Origin: Ceratodon purpureus
Taxonomy: Eukaryota; Streptophyta; Bryopsida; Pseudoditrichales; Ditrichaceae
Length of the DNA: 64,000 bases
NCBI GenBank assembly: GCA_014871385.1
Contig: CM026428.1
Coordinates: 17,863,398 to 17,927,397, forward strand
Direction of reading: 5' to 3'
The position numbers and the translations under genes were made by a program. The first letter of the stretch is position 1, and each line of letters begins with the position of its first letter. The notes below the pieces were generated by a model. That model had not been told where the DNA came from. It searched no databases and worked only from the letters and a program-made list of their open reading frames with translations. Of this stretch, positions 7,800 through 45,180 are shown piece by piece.

Positions 7800-9231
7800 T
7801 TAAAGCTTGCCAGGATGTCCAGGCTGTAATAGATTCTCAGCTCTTTGAATCGCTTGCATGCACTCTCCCAATGCGCTGAGCAGCTGCATGTCCCACCCAG
7901 ATTATCGACTCAGTGACATGCCAAAGCAAGGAAACAAAAGTTTTAAAAAATAACCGAACGATCAGACACTTAAACAAGACTGCCGCACTGACGGGATGGG
8001 GACAGATAGAACCAACCGAAGAACTGCGCAATCACCTGGGTTAGGTCACGAATCTCTTGACATGCAGCAATAGATTGGCGAATTTCCTTCATGGCCAAGT
8101 GTATCAAAAGTCAGTTAACGTCACTCTGCAGTAGATTGGCATATGCGCGTGCTCACGCACGCATACACTTCAAAAGTCGCAAACAGATACCATCATCACG
8201 AACACACTAAATTCTATACAGAATCAAATTATATACGCTGAAAGTCTCACCTCGACTTTCTGATATAACGTGGAAACGAGATTCGATAGCACAACAGGTG
8301 GATTGACATTTGAAAGCACCTGCATCTCAAAATCTTCAAATTAATTAGCCTATTGGGATTGATTCAATGGCTAATTGTATTAAATGAAATGGACTAACTT
8401 GAACATGCCACGTGTTTCTCCAATTCTATTGAAGCAACTCTTACGATCAAACACAGAAGAGAGACAACGGTCACCTTCGGAAGAGTGGAGATGTATTGGT
8501 CTGATGATCCTGGAGGAGACGCTGTCATATTTGTGTCTTCAAGAATGTTGAAAGAGGTTCCTGCAAAAATACCAGAACCAAGGGCATGAACATCAACCAA
8601 AGTTGGGAAAGCGATGGACTAGCCAGAACTGAATAATCAATCAGCGTTCTAAACTTGGTCACACCCATTTTCATTCTAAATCGTACAGCATTGTTCTGAG
8701 CGCATCTGATCCAGAGCGCAGTGGGAGAGGAGCGATTATGAGAATACGGGGGTGGCTGTGATCGCGTAGAGGGCACTGCTACAACCGTAATTAGATTACA
8801 AGATGGTTTAGGGTTGATGGTTGAGGGCAGGAGGGTAGAAGTTTTAGGGTTTAGATGAAGATCGGACCGGAGAGTAATTCCGTGGAAGCTTGGCGCTTGG
8901 GGCTCCTCTCATCTGAGCTGGGGCCGTCGTCGCGAAGGCTGGCGACGCGCATGTGACTGGGAGGTGGAGCAGGGGGCTTGGGGAGGTGCGACGGTGGGGG
9001 CGATGAATCGTGGACATGCTGCGCTTGAAGCTTGAGGGCTAACTGGTCCTCGGTCAAGAGCCACTGGGAGCAGGAAACGCAGAAGAGTTGCTTTTGGCGG
9101 TTGCGGACGAGCGGCGTGAGGCAGACGGGGCAGGAGTCGGCAAGAAGAGTCCAGCCTTGTAAGAGTTTGGAGGCGATGAGGGAGCTGTGATCAGGCGGGG
9201 GATCGGCGGAGGCAGGCACGCGGTCGTCCAT
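7800..9231 (-). CDS. SSSCA1/p27 autoantigen-family zinc-ribbon protein
   Basis: Five exons on the reverse strand join in phase: 8868-9231, 8475-8560, 8251-8319, 8036-8086 and 7800-7883, giving about 217 residues from ATG 9231 to TAA 7800. Residues about 22-60 hold the family signature LLQGWTLLADSCPVCLTPL and LFCVSC, a four-cysteine zinc ribbon (CPxC...CVSC). A Pro/Ser-rich linker follows. The remaining exons encode a helical tail (VLSNVNPPVVLSNLVSTLYQ, EIRQSIAACQEIRDLTQ, LLSALGECMQAIQRAENLLQ), which matches the layout of plant SSSCA1-like proteins. The family is related to the human ZNRD2/p27 centromere-binding autoantigen, and its plant role is poorly known. The exon 1 donor (CTCTCCG|GTCCGA) is the weakest junction; the others are good GT-AG sites. 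The GC-rich upstream region with CGACCGA repeats is consistent with a promoter. Confidence 0.85.
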
Positions 9232-9420
9232 TGCAGTACAACAACGAGGGGAGAGAGGGAGCGGAGGGGAGAGGGAAGAGGAGGCCGAGCAGCAGAGCAG
9301 AGCAGAGCAGCAGCGACACTCGCAACGAAGGAAGCTGAGGCAGCGACCGACCGAGCGACCGAGCGACCGACCGAGCGAGCAAGCGGCACCTCACTTAAGG
9401 TGGAGCACCCGTTCCCGTGG
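9232..9420 (-). promoter_or_regulatory. GC-rich promoter/5' UTR of the SSSCA1-family gene
   Basis: The first 190 bases upstream of the reverse-strand start are GC-rich with purine runs (GAGAGGGAGCGGAGGGGAGA) and a CGAC/CGAG array at about 9342-9385. No TATA box is obvious. Open frames here on both strands follow the repeat composition and are not genes. Confidence 0.5.
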
Positions 9421-10329: not shown

Positions 10330-12703
10330 CTATGAGTGGGAGGGTAGTGGCTCACCAACTCGAATTTGATCATGCAGGCGCTGCCCGTACGCTGCCACCG
10401 CCGCAAGGGACCACTGCTCGTTGAATGCTTCTTTCCGAGCACGCTCCTCTTCTTGCGGGCGCTTGCTCTCTTGCTCCTTCGTCTTCTCCTCTTCTCGCCG
10501 CTTCTTCTCTAGTTCTCTCTGCTGCTTCTTTTCTGCTTTTAATTTTTCGAGAGCCTCATGTGTGCTGACTTTTCTTCCATCATAGCGATATAGGACTCGC
10601 TAGTTAAAATGATGGACTTCGAGTAGTCTGCAAGAGCTTTGGTCGTTCTACGTGGCCTCCTTGCAGTGACCTCAGAGAGAGTCAAAAACCTGGTGATGGA
10701 AGGTGGCTGCTCCTCGGGGCCGATTTCTCCCTCTAATATGACCTCGGGCTCACTTCCATGGCTGACTTCGTTAGCAAGATCAAGATTGACAAAGAAGTGC
10801 TGGGCTGAAGGGTTTTCGGGCGCTGCCACGTCCGTTTTAATTTCCTCAACACGTAGATGCGTCAATGCATCGGCCACATCCTCCACATGATTCTCGTATA
10901 ATTCTAAAGGGCCCGTCTTGTTGGCCATGGCAGCTCCATCCCATGGCCAAATTCCCGTTGATCAGAAGCCTTTCTGGATGTTTTTAAAAGTCAGTGCCCT
11001 CCTTAATCACAGACTAACCTACTGAGCCAGATTCTCTTTTCTTGCTAAAGACCCTGCGTATCTATACGTCGAAAAATCTCAGTATGCCATAAATGTTGTC
11101 TTGAATGGTTTGAACAAACAGACATCCAACGGTTGCATCGCCTGTGACGTATGCAATGGCAATGTCAAGAAATCTATGCCTTGCGCCCGGGCCTCTTGCA
11201 CTGTGTCAATGGACACATGACTCACATGCCCATCTAAAATGATCAAGTGCCTACGCTCTGCTGAAATTCTACCCAATTCTGCAACAGACCTCACGAAATG
11301 AGATATCCATTTAGGAAACAAACTTATCATCCACGCACGTGGCTGCATGGCCATGGTAGCGTCAGATTCACACTTCTCTATGTAATTGCGCCGGAACCGC
11401 TTATCCTTGAACACGTAAAAGCTTGGAATGGCTTGTCCTGCAACATTGACGCATACGAGATAGGAAAGCCATTCCCGCTTGTCTGGCAATACTTGATGAA
11501 CAAAGCGACTTCCTCTGCGCGTAAGTACAAGCGCTCCTCCATTCCGCCCGGCTTGAGCCCCCGTCTCATCGCAGTTTCAAATTCTATCAGTTGGGTACTT
11601 GTGGGTATCATACAAGTACCTCAGATTTGGACATTCTCCTCGGATAGACCCCTGGCGCGAGACGTTCCAAGTCCCTGAGCAACTCTGAGACTAAGCTCAG
11701 GATGCCGACGTCTTCACCAACGCAACCACCCACGTCTCGGTATACCTTCAACAAACGTCGTCTCCCTCCTTTCACAAATCTCTGCAACCTTTCTTCGTAA
11801 TGTTGCCATCGTCACGGGGTGGCCCAAATTTTGGAGCCAAAAAATCCAGTCAACAATCAACTCCTCTTCTTCTCATGTCAACACGCACTTGCCCCCACGC
11901 TTGCGGTTGCGGGTAATGTCGTACAGGTGATCTCGGAGCGATGATGACGGGATGCAGAAAAAGTCAGTTGCAGTATGGAATTGCATGCCTCCTTCTACCG
12001 CACCCATGGCTTGTAACAGCTGATCGTTGGTTCACATATTAGTTCTTCGAGTTGGACTCGGAGTCCTCTTCCCACCAGCGGGACGCCTTAAATGCTGCAA
12101 ACCTCCAGACGCCTGACGAAGATTTGAAATGTCGCCGAGGGGTTGTCTTCCTCTAACCTCCGGACTTACACTTCGTGGCTGCGATCCACCGAACGTTTCT
12201 GCCAAAGGTATATGCCCACCACCTGATGATCTCCTCGACGCTTGCAGTCTGAGACTAGACCTCGCTCCTGGATATGCTATGGCAGTCTGATCTCGCGCCA
12301 TGAAAGGAAGGCCAGCGCCTTGCCTAAAGCGGCTAGCACGTCCGCCACTTGAAAGTGCGACCTGCGGATTACCGTGGTACCTTCTAAATTGACTACGAAG
12401 ATATTCGGGAGGCGTCGCTGCCACATTACTATGCTCATTGTTACCTCCATTAGTGTCAAAGTCTCCTCTGTTAATATCACCTCGACCTTCGATGATCGTC
12501 TCCTCGCAATTGAAACTCATGAGGGCAGGCGGCAATTCTCCATCGACACTCATCATTGGGCTGTCACTGTCCTCGCCACTCTCACTCTGATGATACCAAT
12601 CCATATTGGCATCATCACTCTCCTTATCAGAAAATGAATGAGGCTGTGACATGGTACCCGAATTCCAATTACGTGCCATGCAACCAAGATTCAATACCTT
12701 CAC
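10330..12703 (-). pseudogene. Decayed pogo/Tigger-like (DDE_1, CENP-B type) transposase
   Basis: Read on the reverse strand, the fossil runs through a Ser/Arg-rich N-terminal ORF (12703-12032). It then has a first HTH with FFCIPSSSLRDHLYDITRNR, and a CENP-B-type HTH with EEELIVDWIFWLQNLGHPV, LRRKVAEICERRETTF and GIPRRGWLRW. Next come a DETG motif, the core LDGHVSHVS (about 11230) and LPLHTSQAMQPLDVCLFKPF (about 11120). After these are NIQKGF and STGIWP, a Leu/Glu-rich ORF (10928-10539) and a Lys/Glu coiled coil ending at TAG 10330-10332. LDGH..H and LP.HTS...QPLDV..F.P.K are hallmark DDE_1 motifs. In-frame stops sit after GWLRW, at KGF*STGIWP and before EEELIV, and the DETG segment is in a different frame from the HTH, so the gene is dead. 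Terminal repeats were not identified. A shorter relative lies at 33690-34310. Confidence 0.85.
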
Positions 12704-19493: not shown

Positions 19494-19497
19494 TCTT

Positions 19498-19519
19498 GGG
19501 TGTAAGTACACTAGACCCC
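19498..19519 (+). repeat. Left terminal inverted repeat
   Basis: Begins GGGTGTAAGTACACTAGACC and is preceded by TCTT. It pairs with 32731-32752. Confidence 0.8.
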
Positions 19520-19859
19520 ATACACTTTGGGCAAAATGCTGTTGTACTTGATGTACAGAGGAGTACAATATTGTACCTATAGTTCTAGCATCGGAGCATC
19601 TGAACCGTTAGATGTAGATCGTGGGGGTTAGTTCCATGGATCTAGATCCACCAATGACGATGGAGGGTTCCCTGACATGCCACGTGCTCATCAGGTTGGA
19701 CGTATATGCGGTTTGCTATTGCTGGTATATTAGTAGGTGGGGCATGTGACTTGGCAAACGGATCCGAGGTGGAATCCTAGGTTCAGGGTGGAAGAAAAGT
19801 CTGGTACTCAACTTTTCATCCTAATAAGGCATTCGGAGAAGAAAAAATATTTGGTAGTT

Positions 19860-21240
19860 TGTTTTAATTAGGCTCAAAGGTATGGTTTTGTTAAATCAAA
19901 GTGCGTTTTTGTGGATGATGGCTGGATGAAATTACATTAGAACCATGTTTTAACTTTCCAAATTACCATTATACATGTATAATGATAAAAAGGAATATGT
20001 TATATTTTTTGGTGCGTCTTTTTAGACACACATCATTGTTATATTATAATATAAAGCTCTATCGTAACCTAAAATGGTTGAGGATTGGATGATTATCAAT
20101 TATTATTCGTGAATTCCACCAAATTTTGGAACATAATTATTTGAAACATATGTAGACGTAGATCTATATAACAATACACTATATAGTATTCATATCCACT
20201 GCCATATTTAGTATTAGAATTTTGTTTACATTAATTCTAAGATTTTAGTTAATTAACAACCAAGCATATAGAGTACTAAAAATATGTAGGATATAAAATT
20301 CAAATTAGGGGTACGGTATAATGAGAAATATCACCAAGTATTTATTGTTATCACAATAAAATTTATGAAGCATGTACGAGAAAAATTGATTAAGGTATAC
20401 GAATATATTCATTATCTATGAAAGCATAGAAACTAAACCATATTTAAATTAAATTGGGTCCGTAGTAATTACATATTGTTTTAATATTTGGTTAATTTTA
20501 AGGTTATTTATAAACCCATATAAATTTCATATACTTCAGTGAATAATTAAAATATTGATGTTAGGGTCTGCCTATAGTTGTATATAATATTCAAATTGTT
20601 CTAATGGTTTAAACTTGGCAACTAAGGATGTAATAATATTTTTATACAACGTTATTAAAAAAAAAAACTGTACTTCTGTTTTTCTTAGAAGCATGTTCAA
20701 TTTATACATATAAAATAAATCAAAATACTGGAAAGATTTATATTTCTTTATTAATCCACTTAATATTACATTCCATGGAATTCACTTCAATTAATTTAAA
20801 CCAGAGCTTGCAAGTCTATCCATATACATGGCCAAATATGTATGAAATGGGCTAATCAAGAGAATTAAATCGCAACAATATTTATCTACTATAATTATTT
20901 GATACACATTATTTTGTTGTTGATTTTTCTTCACTAGTTAAAATATGTAACTTAAAGATGGTAAATAAAGTAAAGTATGAAATTTTTAGACGTCCATTAA
21001 ATATGATGGACTTCCATAAGTGATTTTGTAGATAAAGGATTAAAGGCACACCATTTATTACCGATGGCAATGTGAAATAAACATATGTTCAATGTATATA
21101 AATACACTAGTAATCTCAAACAAAGATAAGATGGCACTTCCTTCCTCTAATGAATGTGAGATAAATAAATTACATAATTTAATTTTCAATTAGGTACATT
21201 ATATAGATTTATTTTTAATTTTCCTAGATTTTATTAAGAA
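19860..21240. other. AT-rich block inside the large transposon
   Basis: About 1.4 kb is strongly AT-rich, lacks the GTAC clustering of the other non-coding parts of the element, and has no ORF. It may be a later insertion or simply the 5' non-coding arm. No inverted repeat around it was found. Confidence 0.4.
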
Positions 21241-21263
21241 GCAACAATTATAGTTACGGAAAG

Positions 21264-21450
21264 GTTGGGCCGGTCAGTGAAGGATAAGGCGTCACTTCTT
21301 CAGTTTGAGTAACCGGTGGTTGCAGGTGGCGGGAAGGTGGTGACCGGTGGCCGACGGTCTGCCGGTTGCGCCGGTCTTAGTTTGTTGGTTATGACCGGTG
21401 ACGGCAGGTTTAGGAAGAGCAACGACCGGTGACCGCCGGTGGTCATCGTC
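21264..21450 (+). promoter_or_regulatory. Cluster of ACCGGT/CCGGT motifs upstream of the zinc-protein gene
   Basis: About eight CCGGT cores, several as the palindrome ACCGGT (for example TAACCGGTGG, TGACCGGTGG, ATGACCGGTG), fall within 190 bases just before the gene. The abrupt change from AT-rich to GC-rich sequence suggests a promoter or a protein-binding array. Confidence 0.5.
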
Positions 21451-21637
21451 TTCCCTCCTTCACGCGCGGGAAGGATTGGACTTTGGTTTTTCCAATTCTT
21501 CCGAGGTCGTCTCTCTCCAGCGATGGCGCAACCTCTCTCGCGCGCGTAGGGTTTAGGGGTTTTGTTTGGAGTGAAGGGTGAGAAGTGGAGGGTAAGGGTG
21601 GTTGGAGAGCTTAGGGTTTGGTGCAGGGGCGATTGCC

Positions 21638-24600
21638 ATGGCGGGGCGCATTGGCAGCACGCGTTCTGGGAGCACACAGAGCGGGCGCAAGGTGGGAAGG
21701 AGAGAATCAGCTCCATCTTCCACCATGGAGGACGATGGTGTGGAGACGAGCAGGGAGTTCGAGGCGGCGGGCTCCGACAGTGATGGGGTGAAGACAAAGA
21801 CGCCGGGAGGGAAGGTAAAAGCGAGACCGCGCCGGCCAATGAAGAAGGGCGATGCGAAGTCGAAGCCGGCGTTCTCGAGGGTGCAGGATGTTGATGCCGA
21901 GATCTTGAGGTTACGAGCTCCACCGAAAGAGCTCAGTCGGGAAGATTTCATGGAAGCGTACCCGAAGCTGCCGAGTGTAGGAGATAACCCTCACCGTTTC
22001 CGTAAGGATACGGTGAGCCAGAGTTTGATGAAGGAGCTGTTCGGGGCTCCTTACGGAGACAACGGCCGCCAAGGGTACGCGTGGGCTGCTTGCAAAGAAG
22101 CAAATGTTGTGAAGCGAATCGAGTATCTGCATCCAATACTCTATCAACACCCACCCCTCGCCATACCTCAGTACCTGAAGATTAGATTCGCCGAAGGAGT
22201 GGCGATGGAGTACGAGAAGGGAGCTGGATTTGTGGATTGGTGTGCGTTTGGAGCAGAGACCAACAAGAGACAGCGGAACAGATACAAGCAGGATTTTGGG
22301 AAGTTGATGGCGCTGCGCAGAACCTTTGAGGAGGAGAAACCGCTGGAGGTTCGGGGGAGGGAATGGCGGGCTATAAAACTAGAGCCAGGAGCGAGCTCCA
22401 CACCGACGTCGAGGGGAGGTGGGGCAGGGTTTGGAGGTGATCAGATGTGGAAGAGGAGGACGAAGTCGAGGTTGGGGGAATCAGGGGATTCGGGGGTCTC
22501 AATTGAGGGGGAGGGAACTGAGGCGCAACGAGGTGGACGGTGGACCCAAGCTTCAGTTCTGGAGCGTCGTGAGGAGATTCAGGAGGTGATGACCTTGATG
22601 GCGGTGGAGATGTCGGCAACGAAAATGGAGGAGAAGACCGCGGCTGAGAAGAGAGACAGATGTAGGGTGGATATGCAGCAGTCAGAGTGCTTGATACAGA
22701 GCTACCAGCGGCAATTGGAGGATAAGGCTAAGAGGATTGAAGTGCTAAAAGGCGATGGAGTGGCTGTGGACAGAGAGGTGATAAAGATGGAGGGCATTCA
22801 GGAGCAGCTTGCGGATGAGGAGGAGAGGCTATGTAAATTTGCGACTGATTTCCAATCTGCAGAGACCGATTTCTTAAACATAGTCGCTGGGGCAGAAGGT
22901 CGTGGATTAGCATTGGAGAATCTGAAGCAAGAGTTGCTTCAACTGAGGAGGGGGAAGAATATAGGTACCTTCTGGCCTCGTCCAGTGGTATACCTAGAAG
23001 ACAATGGCTCAAACGAATCCGAAGACAATACCTTCTTGAGTATTACGGTTTGCTCATTGTGTCTCTTTCCATTTCCATTGAGTGATATTGTTGTTTCCTC
23101 GTGTAGGCACTTGTACCATCCATTTTGTGCATCGGTCTTGTTTATGAATGGAAACAAGTGTTTGGCACGAGGATGCCAACAACTCTGTCACCCTGAGTGG
23201 CATCGAAGCTTCGGTTGGGGGGAACCAAGTGCGGAAATGTTGCAGAGGGCCCGAATGCTGGGTTGTGCTGAGGAGAGGAAGAAGGTGTTCAAAGTGAGAA
23301 TGGATGCCGCAAAGGAAACTTTGCCTACAGTAGGTGAGTATTCCTATTCCTTTGCTGAGTCTTCATTTCCTTCCTAAATAGACTCTGTAGAGCTCAACCA
23401 CCGAAGACTGGAATTCTATATAATGTATGCAGAAAACTTAAGTACGCTTAGTGCCAGAGTTCCCTTATGCTACATTTATAATTTCTGACATGTACATGTG
23501 CGTACACTTTGAATTGTTATTCGGGGTTAGAGTACTCTTGTAACGATTGGAAGATGTAAGACTTGTATTCCTTGTGATTGAGGATACTGATCATAGGTAC
23601 TATGATTCATGTCCCGCATGTGCATCTTGTTATCGGATTACATAACATTTGTCTATTGGTACGCCTTGTACACTTGAGGTAAGTCATACGTCTCTTACAC
23701 TGTACTTATCATACGCACGTAGTGTACATTCCCTGATCTGTCCTAATCTTTGAAGTAGTTGATTTTATCATGGTTGTACATTACCTTGTAACATTTGTAG
23801 AATGTGTACGAGGTCAGAGTTTCATTTATAAAGTTTGTACAAACATCTGCTGTATCGTTTATCTAATGTACGTGCATTGTAGAAATCAGAAGTACATTGC
23901 ATATTGTACAAGTGTTCCGAGTGTATTTTACGTACTCTCGGATGTATTCCTTATACAATTAGAATGTACTAGAAGAGATACTTGCAGTACCCATATTTTG
24001 CGCAGTTCAGGTACAAGTACTTTTTTAGCTGATTAGTAGTATATGTATATTTTTAGGTATTCTTTGTACAAAAGACTGTACTAGAGGTGCTAATTATACC
24101 CAATTGTGAGTTAAATCTTCGCTGTGTGCCTTACGGTTTTCTGTTGGCATGTTTCAGAGATAGCATCCCAATTGTTTGCACTGGCGACATCAGAGATCTC
24201 TCCTGCCAACTTTACCGAGGGAGATGCGAGTCAAGCTGTTTGTACCTCAGCCAAGGTAAGTGAGGTCAGTGGGAAGACGAGAGCCTAGGCTATTGAAGGC
24301 GAAGAACCACAGATGACGACGCCGATCGAGTCTCGGAAAAGAACTGGTGCAGAGAAGAAAAGCACTGGGAAGCGTCAGAAGTCTGACGTCATTTCGTTTG
24401 AGTGTTTGGAGGGACAAGGGGGTCGTGGAATAATTGCAGAGGCTGACCTTGATTGAGAAGAGGAGACGGATGGGGAAGACGAACACAAAGTTATTGGGAC
24501 ACTGCCCTCGAGCTCAGGTACCACAGAGGACTCGGACGGTGACGATGGCGACTCGGATGGTGAGAAGTCTGTGGATTCGGGTGAGCAAGTAGGAGGGCAA

Positions 24601-25341
24601 GGTGATGAACAGGACGAGGTAGAAGAAATAAGCGACGGCGTGATGTTGCCTGTATTAAAGTCATACGATCCTAAGTTTGTTAGTCCTCAGGAGGTCCCAA
24701 AGACCAAGGCTCAGACAAAGATGGCCGTTACCTCACCGGTCGAAGCAAACCAGCTTGGAGTCGAGGAGAAAGAGGTGGTGGAAGAGGACAGGTTGGACAG
24801 CACACCAACTCCGGAACCAAGCATCTTCCGGAGTTCTAACATGTTGGGGCTGGAAGTGGCGGTTGAAGCGACAGGCTCCGACTGTTTGCCAGGCAGGAGC
24901 AAGGTAGAAAAGACAAGTGGAAAGAAGATACGGAAGAAGACCCCTAAGTCGCCACTACCAGAGAAGGTTGTCATGGAAGACGAGGAGGAAGATCAGGAGG
25001 AGCAACTGGAGGGAGGAGATGCTGATCAAGCTGAGAAAGAGCCACAGCGGAAAAAGGGGAAGTCAAAATTCAAGGAGAAGCCGCTGGAGGACGGTAATAC
25101 GGGTGAAGATGGAGCCGAGAAGGAGAGTCAGCACGTTGCGAAGGATAGGAAGAAGCGGCTGAGTAAGGATTTAGAAGATGAGGCAGAGGCAGAGAATGAG
25201 GTGGAGAATTCGAGTAGGGGGGATCAGGTCAATGCTAAAGAACCGGGCAAATCAAGGGTAAAAACAAGGGCGCAACTCCAAGCTCAAGCTGTTAGTCTCC
25301 AGGGACAGGTAGAGAAAAAGAAGAAGCGGAGGCGCAAATAA
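21638..25341 (+). pseudogene. Transposon-borne large protein with RING-like zinc cluster and charged tail
   Basis: Exon 21638-23333 (ATG at 21638) ends ACAGTAG|GTGAGT. A GTAC-rich intron runs to GTTTCAG at 24157, and the second exon continues to TAA 25339-25341; the phase closes exactly. The full reading is about 958 codons, but the second exon has in-frame TAG (24286-24288) and TGA (24454-24456), so the copy may be inactive unless those are spliced out. Exon 1 begins with a basic Ser/Gly-rich region, followed by a conserved-looking globular part (PKLPSVGDNPHRF, KELFGAPYGDNGRQGYAWAA) and a coiled coil. Near its end is a Cys/His cluster (CSLCLFPFPL...CRHLYHPFC...CLARGC) that resembles a RING or related zinc fold. 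The second exon is acidic, then Lys-rich (EKKKKRRRK), a likely nuclear signal. I do not recognise the family. It could be an accessory transposition protein. Confidence 0.65.
23334..24157 (+). other. GTAC-dense intron of the zinc-protein gene
   Basis: Flanked by GTGAGT and TTTCAG. By eye about twenty GTAC tetramers lie in about 700 bases, against about three expected by chance. No ORF with recognisable motifs. Confidence 0.65.
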
Positions 25342-25774
25342 GACTAGCCCTTCTCACCACTTCTAAACTACTGGAGATTTCTAGAGTTATTTTTCTTTTA
25401 GTGATGTGCATAGAAGGTGTATGTAGTCCTTCTAAGTTCTGATGTGTATCTTCTCCACCTTTGGGGTTTAGGGAACAGAAACGTGTGGGTTTTTCCCTCC
25501 TTTACTATTTGTATTGTGTTGTTCGTCGACACTGTTACTCTGGGCGTTTTGTATGGTTCAATTATTTTGTAAGTCTCGTTGTGTGAGTACATTATGTTTT
25601 GGCAAGTGATTATGCTGTGTTTGTGCTGTGATTGTGCTGTGATTGTGCTGCTCTTGTGTGATTTTGATTGTATTCAGATTGTGCTGAGGCTGTGTGAGTA
25701 AAGTACTGTTTTGCACTTGCATCACTTTGTGTGAGTAAAGTATCGTTTTGCACTGTCATCGCGGTCTTTGACAG
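25342..25774. repeat. Spacer with TGTGCTGTGATT and GTGAGTAAAGTA repeats
   Basis: Between the zinc-protein stop and the SET gene, GATTGTGCTGT is repeated several times (25615-25685) and TGTGTGAGTAAAGTA-C-GTTTTGCAC twice (25690-25755). It may contain the SET gene promoter or an upstream intron ending TTTGACAG at 25774. Confidence 0.5.
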
Positions 25775-26865
25775 TGGGGGTGTGGCTTGTTGGGCTGGGG
25801 ACCATACCAGGCTGAGTCTTGGTTTGACTTCAAAGATTTGTCCCGAGGCATGGAGCCCATTCTTGTTCCTGTAGCGTGTTCTAATGTTACTTTAACTCCA
25901 TTTCACTACATGTCCTCAAGCATGGTTCACGAAAAAGCCCGTGTAGACCACAGTCTGTATCCCATTCGCACTGGAGACAGCTGCAAATGTGGGACGAGGG
26001 ATTGCTTGACCTCTCCAGTGCCTTGCGACTGTGCAAAAGAATCGGGAGGGGAATTCGCATATGACGAAGATGGCCTCCTCAGAGATTGCTACCTCCAATA
26101 TGGAATCAGTGACTGCAGCAGTTGTAAGAAGGGAGCAGGCTGTTATTGTCTTGATGTGTCACATGTAGATGCTAGAGGGAGGGATAGAAAACGTCAAGTT
26201 CCGCGCACTTTTATTAGAGAGTGTAGTGTGAAGTGTGGCTGCGACCATAAATGTGGTAATCGCGTTGTACAGCAGGGAATGAGGTACCCAGTAGAGGTTT
26301 TCCACACGGGCGAGAAGGGATGGGGGATTAGGGCGACGAAGGCTATCCCAGGAGGTGCGTTTGTGTTTGAGTTGAGTGGGGAGATTCTGACAAACGCAGA
26401 GATGGATGTTAGAAACTTTGCAGTGTGGAAAGGACCCTCTTATGGACTACAACTGGATGCCGATTGGGCTACCGAAAAAAAACTTGATGACAACAACGCC
26501 CTCTGCTTGGATTCCACCTTGTTTGGAAATGTTGCAAGATTTCTAAATCACAGGTTTGTAATATTTGTGTGCATTCACTAAGTATTATTTCATTTATGTA
26601 AAACGTCAACTAATATTTGTATACTATTCTGTGTAGGTGTGAAGATGCGAATCTGATAGACATGCCAGTATTGATTGATGAACGGGATAAGAGTTTTTAT
26701 CACGTAGCCTTCTTCACGAAACGTCCCATTCTAGAACAAGAGGAGCTCACATGGGACTATGGCATAGATTTTGACCTTGAAGACCCAGGGTTGCCATCCT
26801 TTGTATGCAAATGTCAAAGCAGCATGTGTAGGGACAAATTTTACCTTGTAGTTGACCTTGCTTAG
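25775..26865 (+). CDS. SUVR-type SET-domain histone lysine methyltransferase (transposon cargo)
   Basis: Two exons, 25775-26553 and 26637-26865, join AATCACAG|G-TGTGAA to give the key NHRC. From the first ATG (25850) the protein is about 310 residues. The frame is open back to an acceptor-like TTTGACAG, so an upstream exon may exist. In order it has a DLSRGMEPI..VPV lead-in as in plant SUVR4-like proteins; a cysteine-rich pre-SET (CKCGTRDC, CDC, CSSC, CYC, KCGCDHKCGNR); and the SET core. The core holds KGWGIRA, GEILTNAE, FLNHRCEDANL, YHVAFFTKRPI and ELTWDYGIDF, with post-SET CKCQSSMC. The cofactor and catalytic motifs (GWG, NHxC, ELTWDYG) are intact, so it could methylate histone H3, probably Lys9 by family. 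No WIYLD, SRA or DNA-binding domain is present. It is the only gene of this element without an internal stop. Confidence 0.85.
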
Positions 26866-27263
26866 TCGTGTTTGGAACCAGCTCTGTAATGAAATTTAGA
26901 TGAATCCTACTACTCTAAAAACTTGGGTTCAGTAAAGACTCGTACAACGTTTTCGAAGGAATCTTATATACAAATGATACTTAACTAGTACTAAAAGGTA
27001 TATTATATGTACCTTAAGTACACATACTACAAGTGATACTATAGCAGTACCGAAAGAATATCATTTGTTCATGCATTAAGTACTTGTATACAGGTAAGAA
27101 TGGATAACTTAAAATTAAAGTCAAGGGCACAATTTGGGACTACCACGCAGTCCTAACTGTACTTGCACAATCTGGAACATGTAGGAACAATTGGAACCAC
27201 AGCGGTCCAAATTCATAAAGAACCGAAGACATACAGAGTACAGTGCAACTACGGAAGATAATG
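26866..27263. other. GTAC-rich spacer between convergent genes
   Basis: Several GTAC tetramers (for example TATGTACCTTAAGTACACAT) lie in the space between the + strand SET gene and the reverse-strand genes. No ORF is supported. Confidence 0.5.
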
Positions 27264-27650
27264 TTACGACTCTAGATAATTCTGCAAATTCTCTAGTCCC
27301 TCTTCACTCATTCTATTATAAAATTCATCCCACACAGCGTTTACTTCCTCTCTCGTCCATCGGGGACTCGTACTCTGAGAACACTCTGATAAAGAGGCTC
27401 TGTCCAACCCTCCTGTCCATGCAGCCTTGTATTGCCTAGGTAGAACAACCCTCAGCCTCCAGAGAAGGGAGTAGAACATTTCTTTACTCCCATGTTGAAT
27501 GGTCCACTTTTGCACATGTGAGCTTGCAGCCCAAACGCCACGCACTATCCTCCTACATGCCACCATTGTAACAAGTAGTATTCCTAGGTACAGCATTAGA
27601 AAGCACCCCAAGGCAACAACAAATTCATCTATGGCTAACTCAGGGTCCAT
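27264..27650 (-). CDS. Small hypothetical protein with one hydrophobic helix (transposon cargo)
   Basis: An ATG at 27650 starts MDPELAIDEF, followed by a strongly hydrophobic stretch (VVALGCFLMLYLGILLVTMV, about residues 11-30) and then a basic, Trp-rich tail (GSKEMFYSLLWRLRVVLP, TREEVNAVWDEFYNRMSEEG). It is about 128 residues and stops at 27264. It lies on the same strand as the transposase and 3' of it. I do not recognise it. It could be a separate small membrane protein or an exon of a larger gene. Confidence 0.4.
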   Translation of the reverse strand: MDPELAIDEFVVALGCFLMLYLGILLVTMVACRRIVRGVWAASSHVQKWTIQHGSKEMFYSLLWRLRVVLPRQYKAAWTGGLDRASLSECSQSTSPRWTREEVNAVWDEFYNRMSEEGLENLQNYLES

Positions 27651-27914
27651 AGCACAGGAAGAGAGGAGCAAACAACACTATGAATCTCGCAGAAGCACAT
27701 GGTCACACACAAAGAAGCTATCACGTAAGAGTCGTCCATTTGTACAAAGACGGGGACCGAAAATCTTGCCAAATTCTATAAAAAGAACAACGGTCACATA
27801 ACTTGAGCAACACGCTCACTGCCCGTTTCAAACCGTACAAAGAGTATTCACAAATACCTTATACAATACAAGATTAGTACAATTAGTACATCTAAGTTTT
27901 GAAGTACCACATAA

Positions 27915-30900
27915 CTATTCCTTATTGAATGCCCACCACTCCCGTAAAGCATCCTCACAGACCCTCAAGATCTCTTTGGACATCTTGTATACAGGGGAGC
28001 CCTTCACCCTGTGTGCAGCAAGAATCATTGGAAATTTGCAAGCCCGCACCAAATGCGAATCAACGTGAGCGTCTACGGCCTTGTTGCAGAATACAAAGGT
28101 CTTGTCGCCACGGCCAAACTTCTTGAAATACTTTGCTCTGATTACTTCGTCGCCCGCACTAAACACGCCCCCCCATGGACAGTTTAGATGCTCCTGCAAC
28201 TCAAACTTCCGCTTTGTACACTGAAGAATATAAAAATCGACTCCATCTTCATTATCCTCCTCTGCAGGTATCATGAAGTTATCCCCTACATCTACCAAGT
28301 CCCCTAGAGACATGGAGACACCGTCATGCATCCAGTTCGCCTCATCGTCCAACTCCTGTATCACCTCTGCTACTGGACCAGCGCTGTCCGGAACTAACCT
28401 TTTCACGTCCCAGCCCTGCACATAAGATAAGTTCTCACAGTTAGCCCAATCGCAATCAACACAAGGTATACAAAAACATGACAAAGATCGAGTCCTCAAC
28501 AAAGTAGGGTTGGTATCAGAGAAGCCCATAATCGAATAAAGTGACTTCGAGCCCGGCAGAGTCTTGCAGCGTATGCTCGTGTCACCATGGTCGACCTCAT
28601 CTTCCCCAATGTGCCAAAACACACGAGAAAGGGATGGGGTATTTGTCCGCTTGTACGTGCTTGTAACCCGCTCAGTGTATCTTTCCTCCAGGAACTGAAC
28701 AACTTGTTCAGCATTCTGCAATGGCCTCGATGGGTTTAGGATCTGCTCGGAAGTCAAGGCTCTCTTCACAACCGCACCCGCTCCATCCCATTCGCCTTTC
28801 CCGTGAGCACTTTCGAAGTAGCTCCATCGCATCTTGCAACCCTTGGTAAGAATGGGGTATCTTGCCACAAAGTACATGGCCGTGGCGCACTTGAATTGGG
28901 TGCTGCACCCGTCACTATACACCCAGTGTTCTTCTGGACTGAAGCCAGAATCTTGCAACCAGTCCCAATGCAAGAGCAAACAATGCTGGACATATGCCGA
29001 ATCATGTTCCTTGTCGTCAGACACATAGAAGTGTGTTTGCTTGATGATGTTCTCTCCTTCTCTCCACATGGTAATGTGAACTAGGATAGTGACAGAGGTG
29101 CTGAAGTAATACATACTTTGCACCTCGTTTTGAATTGCGAAACTATAATTTTCTGCAAAATCAATGTGGGAGATGATAACTCCCTCAGGGACATTCTTCA
29201 TCATCTTGTGGCACTGCTCATCTTGCCATCTCACCCTGAAATTGTGAGTGATAAACGTTGTCACTGTTTTTTCCATGTAGGACAAGAATTCGTCAACGGG
29301 TGTCTCTTTAAAAGCCTCTCTCAGTCGTTTCTTTGGTCTCCCTGTCTTCTTGTCCACGCCCACCTCGTAATACTCAAAGCACTTCCACTTCAACGTGAAT
29401 GAGTCAATACTAGCCAACTCTTTTGGACACAAAGGAAATAACTCAAAGCCACAATCAGGACAATCCCCCATGAGGCAATCCAGCTTGTACCAAACATCAA
29501 GCTCCCCTTTGGGACAAACACAAGCTTCCCACATCAAGGTTATGCGCTTATAAATCTAACAATGAGCATGACAACCCCCCTCCGTATCAGTAGCACACAC
29601 CAAGCACCCACAATCACAGTTAGACTGTGCATGAAGGCCCCGCACTTTGTCCCTCAAATTGCTCAGACCAACCTTCATCAGATCCATTTCCACATGGTAG
29701 ATACAACAACAAGTATTCCTCTCTTTTAGCTTTCGCACCCACCAAGGCTTCAACCTCTCGAAAGCTCTCTGGCGAACACTACACTCTGGATGCGCCTCTG
29801 TAAACCGCAAGAAGAACGTTGTCTGTATTCCATCAGAGTACAAATCAGTATCATAGTACATTAGTACCACTAATACACATGAGAAGTACCCTAAACCAGA
29901 GTATGAAGTACTGACAAAGAAATCGAACAGTACTAAAACAATACTATGGTTGTGTACAAATGACGTTTCATTGAGTACAAATGATATAGAAGTAAACTTT
30001 GAGTACACATATACTCTTGGACTTCACATTTGCTACAACATCAAAGTACAACCTGTATATATTGGTACAAGACAAGTACGTTGTTTTCAACTGCTACCAC
30101 ATGGAGTACTAACTATACAGAACTCTTGAACTCCAGAAGTATACAGTTTGTACTATATGTTCGTGGACTCCACATTTTCTACCACAGACACGTACAAGAG
30201 TATACACTCGTCCAGTACCTCGATGTATCCAAAGTATAAAGTGTCTACGCGAATTTGTCTTTGTACATAAATGGCCACCACTAATTCACATCTAGTATGG
30301 TATAGTACATATAGCCACAGGAAGGGTACAAGAGAAGTACAAAACACAGGCTTTCGAAGTATTAAGAATACAGTACCCAAAAACCCTTCGAGCAACAATT
30401 ATAACTCCGTGTACAATAAGGCAGCTATCACTGATTTTACAAAGGCAACAGATACAAGTGGTAGGGAAGAACGTACTTGTGCCTCACACAAGTAGTGAGT
30501 AGGGTGAGGCTCGGCCCAAAGATTCCTTCCAACCCTGTGCTTCACAATATCCTTCTTATTAGGTGACACCTTAGTCTGACTCCTCCACCATGCCTCGATC
30601 TGGTCCTTGATGTAGTCGGATAAGCCTCCTCTCTTCTTGCGTTGGAGACGAAGTCTTGGCACAGCTTCTTCGGGGCCGAGAGCATAGACCCTACGATTCT
30701 TTGCTATCATGATGCTCTCAGTACTTGTGTGCAGAACTCGTGATAACGCCCTCACACCACCAATCCCCATGCTCACTGCAGCATCTAGAAGGGCACTCTT
30801 ACGTGCTAACAACTCGTTTGAATTCGCAACCTTCACCATGGAAAGCTCATGCCTGAAGTTCAAAAGAAAACCGTGCACGACCTTTGCTTCTTGCGGTCAA

Positions 30901-31274
30901 GGGTAATAATCAGGTAATAGTGGCCAAACAGTGTCACGACGCAACAGACTCTCCATGACATCTTTCCGACTCAAAGGACCGGGACAACTTCTCAACTCCT
31001 CAACTATGTACTGAGCTATGCGTAATGAAATCCGATTGGACTCCCTCACACTCAGATGGTCCTCAACGTCCTCATCTGGAAGCTCAGTTGCCAACACTCG
31101 TGTTTCCTTGACCATCTGTCTCTCACGTGCTCTCTGTCGAGCTTTCCTCTCTCTCGCCCCTTCAACTGTAGCCGACCTCTGTTCATTCCGCAACCTACTT
31201 TCAGCGGCTCTAGCAGATGGTCCAGGCCGACTAACACCATGTCTCACACGCTATCTCTTGGCGGTGTTTCCCAT
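27915..31274 (-). pseudogene. DDE-like transposase of the large transposon
   Basis: The reverse-strand reading runs from about ATG 31274 to a stop at 27915. One intron lies between LCEAQ (donor CAA|GTACGT, exon ends 30477) and TTFFLRF (acceptor ATACAG, exon starts 29822), and the phase closes. The N-terminal part is Arg-rich, followed by a helical segment with WWRSQTKVSPNKKDIVKHRV and a Cys-rich part (CDCGCLVC, CPDCGFELFPLC) like a zinc-binding fold. The catalytic-looking core has HIDFAENYS, then YSDGCSTQFKC, then FESAHGKGEWDGAG: two Asp and one Glu in the spacing of an RNase H-fold DDE enzyme. In-frame stops occur at 31251-31253 (TAG), 30897-30899 (TGA) and 29556-29558 (TAG), with the same frame on both sides of each. 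This copy is therefore probably inactive. Similar SDG..TQ and HGKG.xDG proteins occur in plants and animals. Placement in Sola is only a guess from the 4-bp target duplication. Confidence 0.7.
29823..30476 (-). other. GTAC-dense intron of the transposase gene
   Basis: Bounded by donor GTACGT and acceptor ATACAG on the reverse strand. About twenty GTAC tetramers are seen in about 650 bases, the same signature as the intron of the zinc-protein gene. Confidence 0.65.
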
Positions 31275-31441
31275 GAGACCTAGGAGTTGTGCACGACACC
31301 CACTGCTTTGTTAGTAATCTATAGACAAACTCAGTACATAGTTGTGGAGTTGAGAGATTAACACTGTCCTGTACATAATGAAGAGTTCCACGAAGAATGC
31401 ACAATCTATTCCACAAAACTCACCGAAATTGCTGACAAGCA

Positions 31442-31807
31442 TCACCTTCTGAATGCAACTGACTCCTCGCTTCTAGTAGGAGAAGATATTTGATACCTCA
31501 CATCAGAAAGAGAAGGCAAAACTTCATAGCTACTAGAGGGGTAACTACAAGAATCAGTAGATACTGCGGCAAGAAACAATGCACGCCTAGGAGATTCTTC
31601 TGATACTGATACAGCGTTGCACTTTCCTAAGTAGAAATCTCGCACCCCTTGCTTTGAAACAGGGGTCTCAGATACGTAACAGGAGTCACTAGTTTCGCTA
31701 TTTTCTGTATAATAAATCGATTCGACCTCTGAAGTTTGTGGGATACAGGTGAAGTACGAAGTAATCAACTTCTGCACCAGATTCGACCTCTGAGCGGACC
31801 TAGACAT
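31442..31807 (-). CDS. Ser-rich ORF upstream of the transposase
   Basis: An ATG at 31807 begins MSRSAQRSNLVQKLITSYF and a Ser/Glu-rich frame runs to a stop at 31442. An AG|GTGATG donor overlaps the stop. It may be the first exon of the transposase gene, but I could not find a downstream acceptor that closes the phase. It might instead be a separate small protein. Confidence 0.3.
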   Translation of the reverse strand: MSRSAQRSNLVQKLITSYFTCIPQTSEVESIYYTENSETSDSCYVSETPVSKQGVRDFYLGKCNAVSVSEESPRRALFLAAVSTDSCSYPSSSYEVLPSLSDVRYQISSPTRSEESVAFRR

Positions 31808-31846
31808 TTTGCATGAACACAGCAAACACAGAGAATCTGCAAGCAA

Positions 31847-32730
31847 CTATGGAAAAAACACTACGCAACCAGCCCGTCATTGAGCGCCCTAATTGTTTAG
31901 ACGTTGAAAACACAGCTGAACATGAGCACAGAGCGCAGCCGCCACGAAAGGTGGGAAAAACTGCATGGGGGAGACGAAGAGAATGTCAAAGCTGGGGTTG
32001 ATTGCAGGTGGCGGCGGCATATTTGAGGGGCGTTGAAGGGATCTGCTCTATGGGTCATGCATGGGCACCCTCCCAAGCTCGGCGCCCTTGAATTTCGGAT
32101 CTTGATCGCGAAAACGAACGGCTCAAGTGATAGGGTCGCCCACGTGGACGGTCAGGATGAGACATCGACTGTACATTGAGTACTATAAGTACTGTATGTA
32201 CACTGTGAACGCAGTGTGATCGGCTACTAAATGAATAACGGAAAAATTCTCTTTTTCCAAATTGAACAGTGAGCCAACCTAGGACTATCCTAAGGCGTCC
32301 AGAATCCACTGCTGGATCTTGAAAACGTAGAATATTTCCCCCCTTTTTTCCTTGCTAAGCATTCAGTACTACTTTTTTAAATTTTCCACAAATAAGCCAC
32401 AAAATCGTCAATTCGCTGATAGAATCTAAAAAACGGCATGCTTTACTTTCCTCTGCATGAAAGAGATCAGATTCGAAGTTTTGGATAAACAAGAAATTTG
32501 TACTTTTATGCTAAACTAGTACTTGTGACTTTTTTTTGCACTGTAAACAAGTACAATTAAAACATAGGCGATCACATATCTAAACTATTTTGACACTGCA
32601 AATACGATCTAAACAAGCATACTTATTATGCAAACCTGTTACAAAACGTAGAAACATTTAGCTCGGATGGTATTTTTTGATGTGAACAGACCGCACCCTG
32701 GAAAAATACGACTGTGACTAGAAAAGTACA
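31847..32730. other. Right non-coding arm of the large transposon
   Basis: Contains GTAC-rich stretches (GTACATTGAGTACTATAAGT near 32172, and more at 32490-32560 and 32725-32745). No gene is supported. Confidence 0.45.
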
Positions 32731-32752
32731 TGGGTCTAGCGTACTTACACCC
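32731..32752 (-). repeat. Right terminal inverted repeat
   Basis: Ends GCGTACTTACACCC and is followed by TCTT. It is the reverse complement of the left end at 19498 with one mismatch in 21. Confidence 0.8.
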
Positions 32753-32756
32753 TCTT

Positions 32757-44002: not shown

Positions 44003-44686
44003 CTAGCGCCACCTCTTCTTCTCGAAAGGCTCCTGCAGAATCGCGACCTGGCTGTAGCGGGGGGCGTGAATATTGAACTTGCCCGTAGTTTTCAAGGAAT
44101 CGGGATAAAAGAGCACAACATCGTCCTTGCTGTCAGGCGTGGAAATACGCAGCTTGGGACCAAACTTACTGAAGGCAGCCTGGGCAGACCTCAAACTGTG
44201 CTTGCGGGCCAAGGTGAGTGCACAGGATTTGCGGTAGATGGAGGTGACCTTCCAGAGGGACGAGCGACTGTGCACGAAGGAATAATAATTGACAATGGAG
44301 CGGATGATGGCGGAGTAATGGAGCACGATGGCAGCGTCAGGAGCGGCCACAAACTTGGGGTTAGAGGTGGCGCGTGCCAGACCCTGCGAGTTGTACTTGG
44401 CATAGCCGCGCTGCACCGCATCGGAGAGCAGGTGGCGCACGGGCGCCAGAAGGCGCGGGCGGGAGGCGGCGGCGGCGTCGTCGTCGTCGTCGTCATGATG
44501 ATGATGATGATGGTGAGCAGTGTTGGAGGTAGTGGAGGCAAGAGCAGGGGAAGGAGACCGAGAGACGGGGGAGAAGCGGAAGGTGAGGCAGCGCTGAAGC
44601 GCAGGGGTGGGAGGGAGGGAGTGGAGGTGGGGGTGGAGGCGCGGCATAGAGAGACCGTGCATGAGGTTGCGCAGCCAGTGCGCCAT
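44003..44686 (-). CDS. Nuclear group II intron maturase reduced to domain X
   Basis: Single exon, ATG 44686 to TAG at 44003, 227 residues. A second in-frame ATG lies at 44815. The N-terminus (MAHWLRNLMHGLSMPRLHPH, then RCLTFRFSPVSRS) is Arg/Leu/Ser-rich and lacks acids, so a mitochondrial or plastid presequence is likely. A His7-Asp6 run follows, coded by a CAT/GAC triplet array. From about residue 75 the sequence matches the maturase domain (Intron_maturas2): LSDAVQRGYAKYNSQGLARA, IVLHYSAIIRSIVNYYSF, VTSIYRKSCALTLARKHSL and AAFSKFGPKLRI, with the typical Y..I.R.IVNYY and SCA.TLA.KH. No reverse-transcriptase domain is present, unlike plant nMAT1-4. A promoter-like CT/GA-rich region (CACACAGACACACACGCTCG) lies upstream, so the short form seems genuine. 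It probably aids splicing of an organellar group II intron. Confidence 0.8.
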   Translation of the reverse strand: MAHWLRNLMHGLSMPRLHPHLHSLPPTPALQRCLTFRFSPVSRSPSPALASTTSNTAHHHHHHHDDDDDDAAAASRPRLLAPVRHLLSDAVQRGYAKYNSQGLARATSNPKFVAAPDAAIVLHYSAIIRSIVNYYSFVHSRSSLWKVTSIYRKSCALTLARKHSLRSAQAAFSKFGPKLRISTPDSKDDVVLFYPDSLKTTGKFNIHAPRYSQVAILQEPFEKKRWR

Positions 44687-45180
44687 CGTAGTGGCAGACG
44701 ACGACGAAGAGAGCTTCACACACACAGACACACACGCTCGTTCGCTCGTTCGCTCGCTCTGTCTCTGTCTGTCTCTCGCTCTGGAATGTCCAGACGCTGA
44801 GCTCCTCCTCCGCATCAGTTAACCTAGGGCTTTCTCCCTCCTCCCTCCAGTTCCAGGACTGGACTGGACTGGACACGATCATCTACACCGTCCATCTCAG
44901 ATCCTCAATGGTGTACGTCCAATTCGATTAAGGTGGGGCCCACCACTGACCTCAGCCACCTCCTGTCAGCAGAATACTCTTGTTTGTAACCGGCAGCAGG
45001 CCCGTTCGAGCTAACGTGTCGGGACTTGAGTGGCTGAGGGCAGCCCTGCTATACGCGGTAACCTGATGCTGTGGGCCCCGAGCAGAATCCTGTAATGATG
45101 ACGTAAAAATGCAATGATTATCTTTTTTTTCAACCGTTGGATCCTTTTGCTTGTGGGCCCCGAGCGGAATCCGAAGGTCG
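44687..45180 (-). promoter_or_regulatory. 5' flank of the maturase gene
   Basis: Contains CACACA and GCTCGTTCGCTC arrays directly upstream of the start. Beyond that are two copies of GTGGGCCCCGAGC.GAATCC (about 45070 and 45155). No other gene is supported. Confidence 0.4.

Follow-up and report, generated by a model that had tools for sequence, protein, structure and literature searches.

A clade of moss DNA transposons carrying a conserved SUVR-like SET gene

Why should a transposon carry a gene for writing silent chromatin? Hosts normally use the H3K9-type silent-chromatin mark to shut transposons down, and the common view is that transposons evade such marks or erase them. The window examined here, a 64-kb stretch of contig C8 of the moss Ceratodon purpureus, contains a DNA transposon with what is likely a writer of this mark, a SET-domain gene apparently kept by selection. 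The cargo is surprising because its mark normally serves the host in silencing such elements, and a silencing mark written on oneself offers no obvious advantage. The explanation favored here, to which we assign a probability of roughly 0.7 as a whole, is that of a transposon clade whose SET gene was captured once, has been kept by selection, and serves self-directed H3K9 methylation.

The window element, a member of a DNA transposon family, measures 13,255 bp (19498-32752). Its limits are defined by the following features:

19494..19497, unstranded: left target-site duplication TCTT (sequence, comparison of copies)
19498..19518, forward strand: left terminal inverted repeat (end comparison, motif scan)
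32732..32752, reverse strand: right terminal inverted repeat (end comparison, motif scan)
32753..32756, unstranded: right target-site duplication TCTT (sequence, comparison of copies)

The inverted ends flanked by TCTT repeats that a first-pass annotation had read from the sequence were borne out, each end being 21 nt long and complementary to the other at 20 of 21 positions. The termini GGGTG...CACCC are common to the window element, its copies, and two diverged elements described below. A generalized end motif, GGGTGNNAGTANNCTAGACC, matched both ends of the window element with 0 mismatches and was found nowhere else in the 64-kb window at ≤3 mismatches; in 100 shuffles with ≤3 mismatches allowed, it gave a mean of 0.24 matches, and two matches were reached in 3 of 100.

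Copies were sought in the genome assembly (151 contigs, 362.5 Mb), the contig C6 of which (110.5 Mb, ~30% of the assembly) we take to be the V chromosome of the male strain. Using the left 501 bp as a genome query, the best 40 of 51 candidate places were retrieved, the window's own among them, and ten further copies were taken for end-to-end reading. Five extend from end to end at identities of 97.5-98.6%, and two more do so as a diverged subfamily; two (C6_35 and C6_89) are internally deleted or rearranged with SET sequence still present, and one carries an insertion, its right end lying beyond the stretch taken. The nine copies read to both ends have the same boundaries as the window element and SET sequence within them. 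Eight of these nine display perfect 4-bp duplications (TACT, CTTT, AAGG, AACA, GAGG, TGTT, ACAG, and TAGA), and the duplication of C6_35 is imperfect (CGGG/TGGG, 3 of 4 positions alike). With the two diverged elements and the window included, perfect 4-bp duplications flank 11 of the 12 elements read to both ends, and no target preference is evident among these eleven. The six near-identical copies, including that in the window, differ pairwise by 0.7-2.1%.

That the locus constitutes a single cut-and-paste unit, as first proposed from one copy, is strongly supported by these common boundaries and differing 4-bp duplications: several copies share ends and genes, and 7 of the 9 other both-ended copies run end to end with the SET gene inside. 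The same data refute a composite artifact, in which two unrelated insertions happen to flank a host SET gene. Such an arrangement was conceivable only with a single copy known, and recurrence of the whole unit at nine other both-ended sites, eight with different perfect 4-bp duplications, leaves it virtually no probability.

The gene that raises the question lies in the middle of the element:

25772..26553, forward strand: SET-gene exon holding Pre-SET and the greater part of SET, KMT1/SUVR-like (Pfam, sequence comparison; the open frame begins at 25772, which is not a fixed exon start)
26554..26636, forward strand: GT-AG intron of the SET gene, joining FLNH to RCED (placed by inspection)
26637..26865, forward strand: last exon of the SET gene, with the end of SET and the post-SET CxCxxxxC (Pfam, sequence comparison)

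Its presence inside the element, claimed at first reading, is confirmed by Pfam matches at 25772-26578 to Pre-SET (E 4.8e-11) and SET (E 3.1e-8) and by SET sequence in the other copies. Pre-SET, SET, and post-SET are all present with their NHxC, WDYG, and CxCxxxxC motifs. By sequence, the best PDB match is EHMT2/G9a (E 2.2e-31), with a SETMAR chain also among the PDB matches, and the named proteins among the matches listed are mostly of plant SUVR4 type at 40-47% identity. Neither the SET ORFs nor the acidic ORF, for which N-terminal exon limits are uncertain, gave a Pfam match to a WIYLD domain, so that the ubiquitin link of SUVR4 was, as far as seen, not carried over. The window copy and all five near-identical end-to-end copies have an open SET exon 1; among 11 other copies compared, three have stops in it and a fourth is without 290 bp of the exon. 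Among the copies read, only C6_51 departs from the catalytic motifs, its last SET exon having an altered DYG motif.

The kinship of the gene was examined in three trees. A first, quicker tree comprised 61 proteins of the 120 listed (the best 120 of 143 matches) together with four copies from the genome; 28 of the 61 had been designated host-type beforehand (21 named, 7 unnamed), and the split between transposon-type and host-type proteins received a support of 85. The unnamed protein P0104, which groups with host genes in this tree, was counted as host-type, and P0158 and P0161 were left out of the later trees. In the 63-protein tree, all transposon-type SETs fall into one clade (35 of 35 rows, support 100/96), as they do in a 67-protein tree including four diverged genomic loci (39 of 39 rows, support 98/98). 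A long stem carries this clade, and the 27 SUVR-type proteins, from an alga and from plants such as Sphagnum, fall outside it. The four diverged loci are spread over three of its subclades among unnamed metagenomic proteins, a mixture from which the association of SET gene and transposon looks old and is probably not confined to a single species. As a separate observation, the longest-contig size is identical for the metagenome proteins P0005 and P0058 (5267) and likewise for P0040 and P0053 (8592), hinting at SET linkage elsewhere.

Upstream of the SET gene, and between it and the transposase, lie three further coding features:

21638..23377, forward strand: RING-like/coiled-coil gene, an uninterrupted ORF of 579 aa from the first ATG (22 homologues, dN/dS)
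24334..25341, forward strand: acidic Lys/Glu-rich coding stretch, upstream limit uncertain, one internal stop in the window copy (tblastn in L041 and L042)
27264..27677, reverse strand: 137-aa ORF, function unassigned (window family and L029/L030)

The RING-like gene is open in the window copy and is found upstream in every element read far enough. The initial call of a RING-like gene thus held for a conserved gene of the element and less well for its name: Pfam RING matches of the window protein fall below curated cut-offs, a RING match at E 0.01 appears in only 3-4 of 21 relatives, and the predicted model has no confident fold in the RING region. The label is plausible from a conserved Cys/His pattern. 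The acidic stretch may encode the N-terminus of the SET protein or be a gene by itself. The 137-aa ORF has stops in C2, C6_71, and L029, and in other families the space between SET and transposase often leaves no room for it.

The transposase gene is encoded on the opposite strand, tail to tail with the SET gene:

27913..29822, reverse strand: transposase exon 2, DDD catalytic core, one in-frame stop in the window copy (gene model, homologues, alignment, fold)
29823..30476, reverse strand: transposase intron, predicted GT-AG (gene model)
30477..31274, reverse strand: transposase exon 1, starting MGNTAKR, two in-frame stops in the window copy (gene model, diverged loci)

The product of the two-exon model has 901 residues; in the window copy it is interrupted by three in-frame stops, so that this copy's own transposase is broken. 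The MGNTAKR start recurs in 3 of 4 diverged loci. No Pfam match was obtained for the core ORF, nor any Harbinger-type match in the transposase ORFs. Alignment with 26 homologues revealed D132, D215, and D257 as invariant in all 27 sequences, and we infer that these residues form the catalytic triad. The predicted model adopts an integrase-like fold, with most match rows within model residues 113-310; a Foldseek search against the PDB was weak by itself, and a second look with VIA-align was clear. No useful match came from a viral fold library, and none of the pattern matches to viral (80) and prokaryotic (45) transposase relatives was confirmed. The DDE-like transposase proposed at the outset therefore stands as to fold and homologues, with a triad of three invariant aspartates.

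Is the SET gene peculiar to the window family? A genome search with the SET exon, of which the best 143 of 749 candidates were considered, returned 31 matches at 73-100% identity and 112 at 47-58%. Four of the 112 diverged loci were chosen by hand, from C13, C7, C8, and C2. The transposase lies tail to tail with the SET gene in all four, and the acidic stretch was matched by tblastn in two (L041 and L042). The four stretches stop short of the position of the RING-like gene, and two were then extended to both ends, yielding complete elements of 11,240 and 11,248 bp with inverted ends of similar type and the duplications TCTG and GAAT. Gene order is the same in both: RING-like, acidic, SET, and then the convergent DDD transposase, the acidic part of the second (11,248 bp) being an ORF of similar character without a tblastn match. 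The element with the TCTG duplication is inserted within a Ty3/gypsy element, and joining its flanks minus one TCTG restores an open frame across the site.

The reverse search, starting from the transposase (best 79 of 1471 candidates), found a convergent SET match at 61 of the 79, with 501-1542 bp between the matched stretches, and no SET partner in a non-convergent orientation within 15 kb of any of them. The remaining 18 are without a partner among the best 143 of 749 SET matches; C6_35, which has a deletion in its SET exon, is one of these, and others may lack a partner because the SET set was limited to the best 143 of 749. Contig C6 holds 38 of the best 79 transposase matches and 95 of the best 143 SET matches. 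Both the fixed tail-to-tail order and this concentration could be read as signs of a role for the SET protein in transposition itself, where, as a member of the transposition complex, it might for instance guide the element into or out of H3K9me chromatin. We consider that unlikely: weak removal would account equally well for a build-up on one chromosome, the enrichment fitting several readings, and the eleven perfect duplications are without evident target preference.

Selection was gauged by plain Nei-Gojobori counts without a significance test. Between subfamilies, dN/dS is 0.34-0.43 for SET exon 1, 0.32-0.37 for the acidic stretch, 0.11-0.15 for the RING-like gene, and 0.05 and 0.10 for the two transposase exons. 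For the two diverged elements, which have no stops in the SET exons, the RING-like gene, or the transposase exons, the values are 0.16 and 0.08 (SET exons 1 and 2), 0.07 (RING-like), and 0.07 and 0.13 (transposase exons). In comparisons against the diverged elements, dS is saturated. Between close copies, SET exon 1 gives 0.8-1.1, and the pair C2-L029 gives 2.0 from 2 synonymous and 15 other changes; a ratio near 1 is expected for copies that no longer matter. As judged from these counts, with dN/dS about 0.16-0.43 between families, the SET coding sequence is kept by purifying selection.

Transposons often capture genes, and the near-neutral ratios between close copies, with stops in one or more genes of several copies, could suggest a passenger: a SUVR gene of the host picked up by accident and of no use to the element. 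Purifying selection between families, retention of SET in deeply diverged families, and its linkage to 61 of the best 79 transposase matches make this reading very improbable. Given that retention and pairing (best 79 of 1471), the purifying selection, and the single tree clade, SET is a core gene of a transposon clade extending beyond the window family.

A more serious rival is counter-defense, whereby the SUVR-like enzyme would compete with or divert host silencing, as a decoy or dominant-negative, or would silence host defense genes. Several transposon lineages encode epigenetic modifiers, which have been read as counteraction (PMC12730594). SET exon 1 retains ~50-57% amino acid identity between families versus 74-80% for the transposase core exon, the faster divergence expected of a protein in conflict with its host. 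This proposal has no known target, and the catalytic motifs, kept in the copies read apart from the one exception above, would not be needed by a mere decoy; we hold it to be possible but doubtful.

The favored explanation, self-directed methylation, would proceed as follows. The one clade and its long stem suggest a single, ancient capture of the SET gene, with a SUVR gene of plant type as its source. The transposase would cut at the inverted ends and join the element to target sites staggered by 4 bp, and the SET protein would methylate H3K9 in trans, mainly on the chromatin of the element's own copies, as proposed from the activity of its kin SUVR4. Elements expressed less and costing the host less could then persist as a family at a level that the host tolerates; for the RING-like protein, targeting partners or turning them over is a possible role. 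The first-pass suggestion that the element manages its own chromatin state is a reasonable one, given a conserved enzyme of KMT1 type under purifying selection. An H3K9-type activity is probable from the kinship of the enzyme. That it acts as self-directed restraint is given somewhat less than an even chance, although this is the most economical reading, with counter-defense and target choice its main rivals. More speculative still, and rather improbable as a full account, is that the clade, having made the captured H3K9-type methyltransferase a core gene, writes a silencing mark on its own chromatin as a survival strategy and, with at least 143 SET copies in one genome (the best of 749), may set much of the heterochromatin of the haploid plant and of the chromosome on which the elements are most dense.

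With the gene for a likely writer of a silencing mark kept in fixed order with the transposase across a large clade, both the self-restraint of transposons and their shaping of heterochromatin become directly testable questions in a laboratory moss. Counts of SET genes in such genomes may also be inflated by transposon genes.

Among described superfamilies, Sola elements have a DDD transposase, 4-bp duplications, terminal inverted repeats of 11-1124 bp, and sizes that may exceed 15 kb, and are on record from the moss Physcomitrella patens (PMC10741241); cargo is known in Sola2, whose elements can bear a Fanzor1 gene (PMC3627910). The DDD RNase H-like core and 4-bp duplication of the window clade are consistent with Sola, a likeness by description and not by sequence; the available Sola descriptions mention no SET cargo, which the window clade carries. 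MuDR duplications are 7-12 bp long (PMC10741241). With duplications of 4 bp, the window clade falls outside MuDR. Lanisha elements reportedly come from Ceratodon purpureus itself and are abundant on its sex chromosomes. They form a proposed cut-and-paste superfamily (Maumus, McDaniel, and Carey 2020, Repbase Reports, as cited in PMC12730594), EnSpm-like and with C(2)C and H(3-4)H motifs between the second D and the last E (PMC12730594). Judged by description, membership in Lanisha/CMCT is unlikely, though some overlap in naming is possible: the 41 residues of D215-D257 hold neither motif, assuming that D257 is the third catalytic residue, and the termini are GGGTG...CACCC rather than the 5′-CA...TG-3′ of most cases.

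As for the cargo, Arabidopsis SUVR4 deposits H3K9me2/me3 (PMC7218100). The window SET shares the Pre-SET, SET, and post-SET layout of plant SUVR4-type proteins, which supply most of its named matches, but differs in that no WIYLD was found, in its separate long-branch clade, and in being transposon-borne. SETMAR/Metnase likewise combines a SET enzyme with a transposase, though as a single primate fusion gene and not a mobile multigene element. Retrotransposons of dinoflagellates and charophytes carry DNA cytosine methyltransferases (PMC5890265) and so also pair an element with a host-derived writer of a silencing mark; there it is DNA methylation and a retrotransposon, here a SET enzyme and a DNA transposon. 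Closest in cargo are the HarbingerS and MuDR families of Phytophthora, DNA transposons that carry a SET histone methyltransferase gene (PMC12730594), in different hosts and probably in different transposase superfamilies. The initial impression that no plant element with this gene set had been described holds in that no plant transposon with SET cargo appeared in the literature searched, whose coverage was partial (elements of this genome may already be listed in Repbase), and must be qualified by these oomycete families. By the descriptions compared, SET cargo itself is known, and what appears to be new here is a plant clade of DDD, 4-bp-duplication transposons with a conserved SUVR-like gene.

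Two further end-to-end copies of the transposon, C2 and C6_71 (L025–L028), form a diverged subfamily whose resemblance to the window copy is uneven along its length. Identity reaches 94–95% in the transposase exons and the right end, stands at 89–92% in the SET exons, and is 69–78% across the remaining left half. Judged by these identities, the subfamily appears to be a mosaic, as if halves had been swapped between families.

The RING-like gene (window 21638–23374), compared with its counterparts in C2 and two further sequences, L029 and L030, gave dS values of 0.7–1.4 between subfamilies, near saturation. In C2 and C6_71, the non-coding DNA adjoining this near-saturated gene is nevertheless ~78% identical. 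The element also holds a small reading frame, for which many other families have no room:

27264–27677, minus strand: 137-aa ORF, dN/dS 0.5–0.75 between subfamilies

Among the matches listed, a single 110.5-Mb contig of the assembly (C6 of G000), possibly the V sex chromosome, holds 95 of the 143 scored SET matches and 38 of the 79 scored transposase matches. Beyond this genome, separate searches returned the same longest-contig figure for the metagenome proteins P0005 and P0058 (5267) and likewise for P0040 and P0053 (8592); because these figures are equal, they suggest that SET is linked to the transposase or the RING-like gene in other organisms.

Three further domain matches lie in the window outside the element:

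8854–9390, minus strand: ORF, Auto_anti-p27 domain (E 1.2e-16)
11082–11576, minus strand: DDE_1 transposase fragment (Pfam E 1.2e-15)
44006–44818, minus strand: ORF, matching the type II intron maturase domain at E 1.6e-21

The first is probably a host gene. The second, of pogo/Tigger-like type, marks another DNA transposon close to the SET-bearing element, and the third resembles nucleus-encoded organelle maturases.
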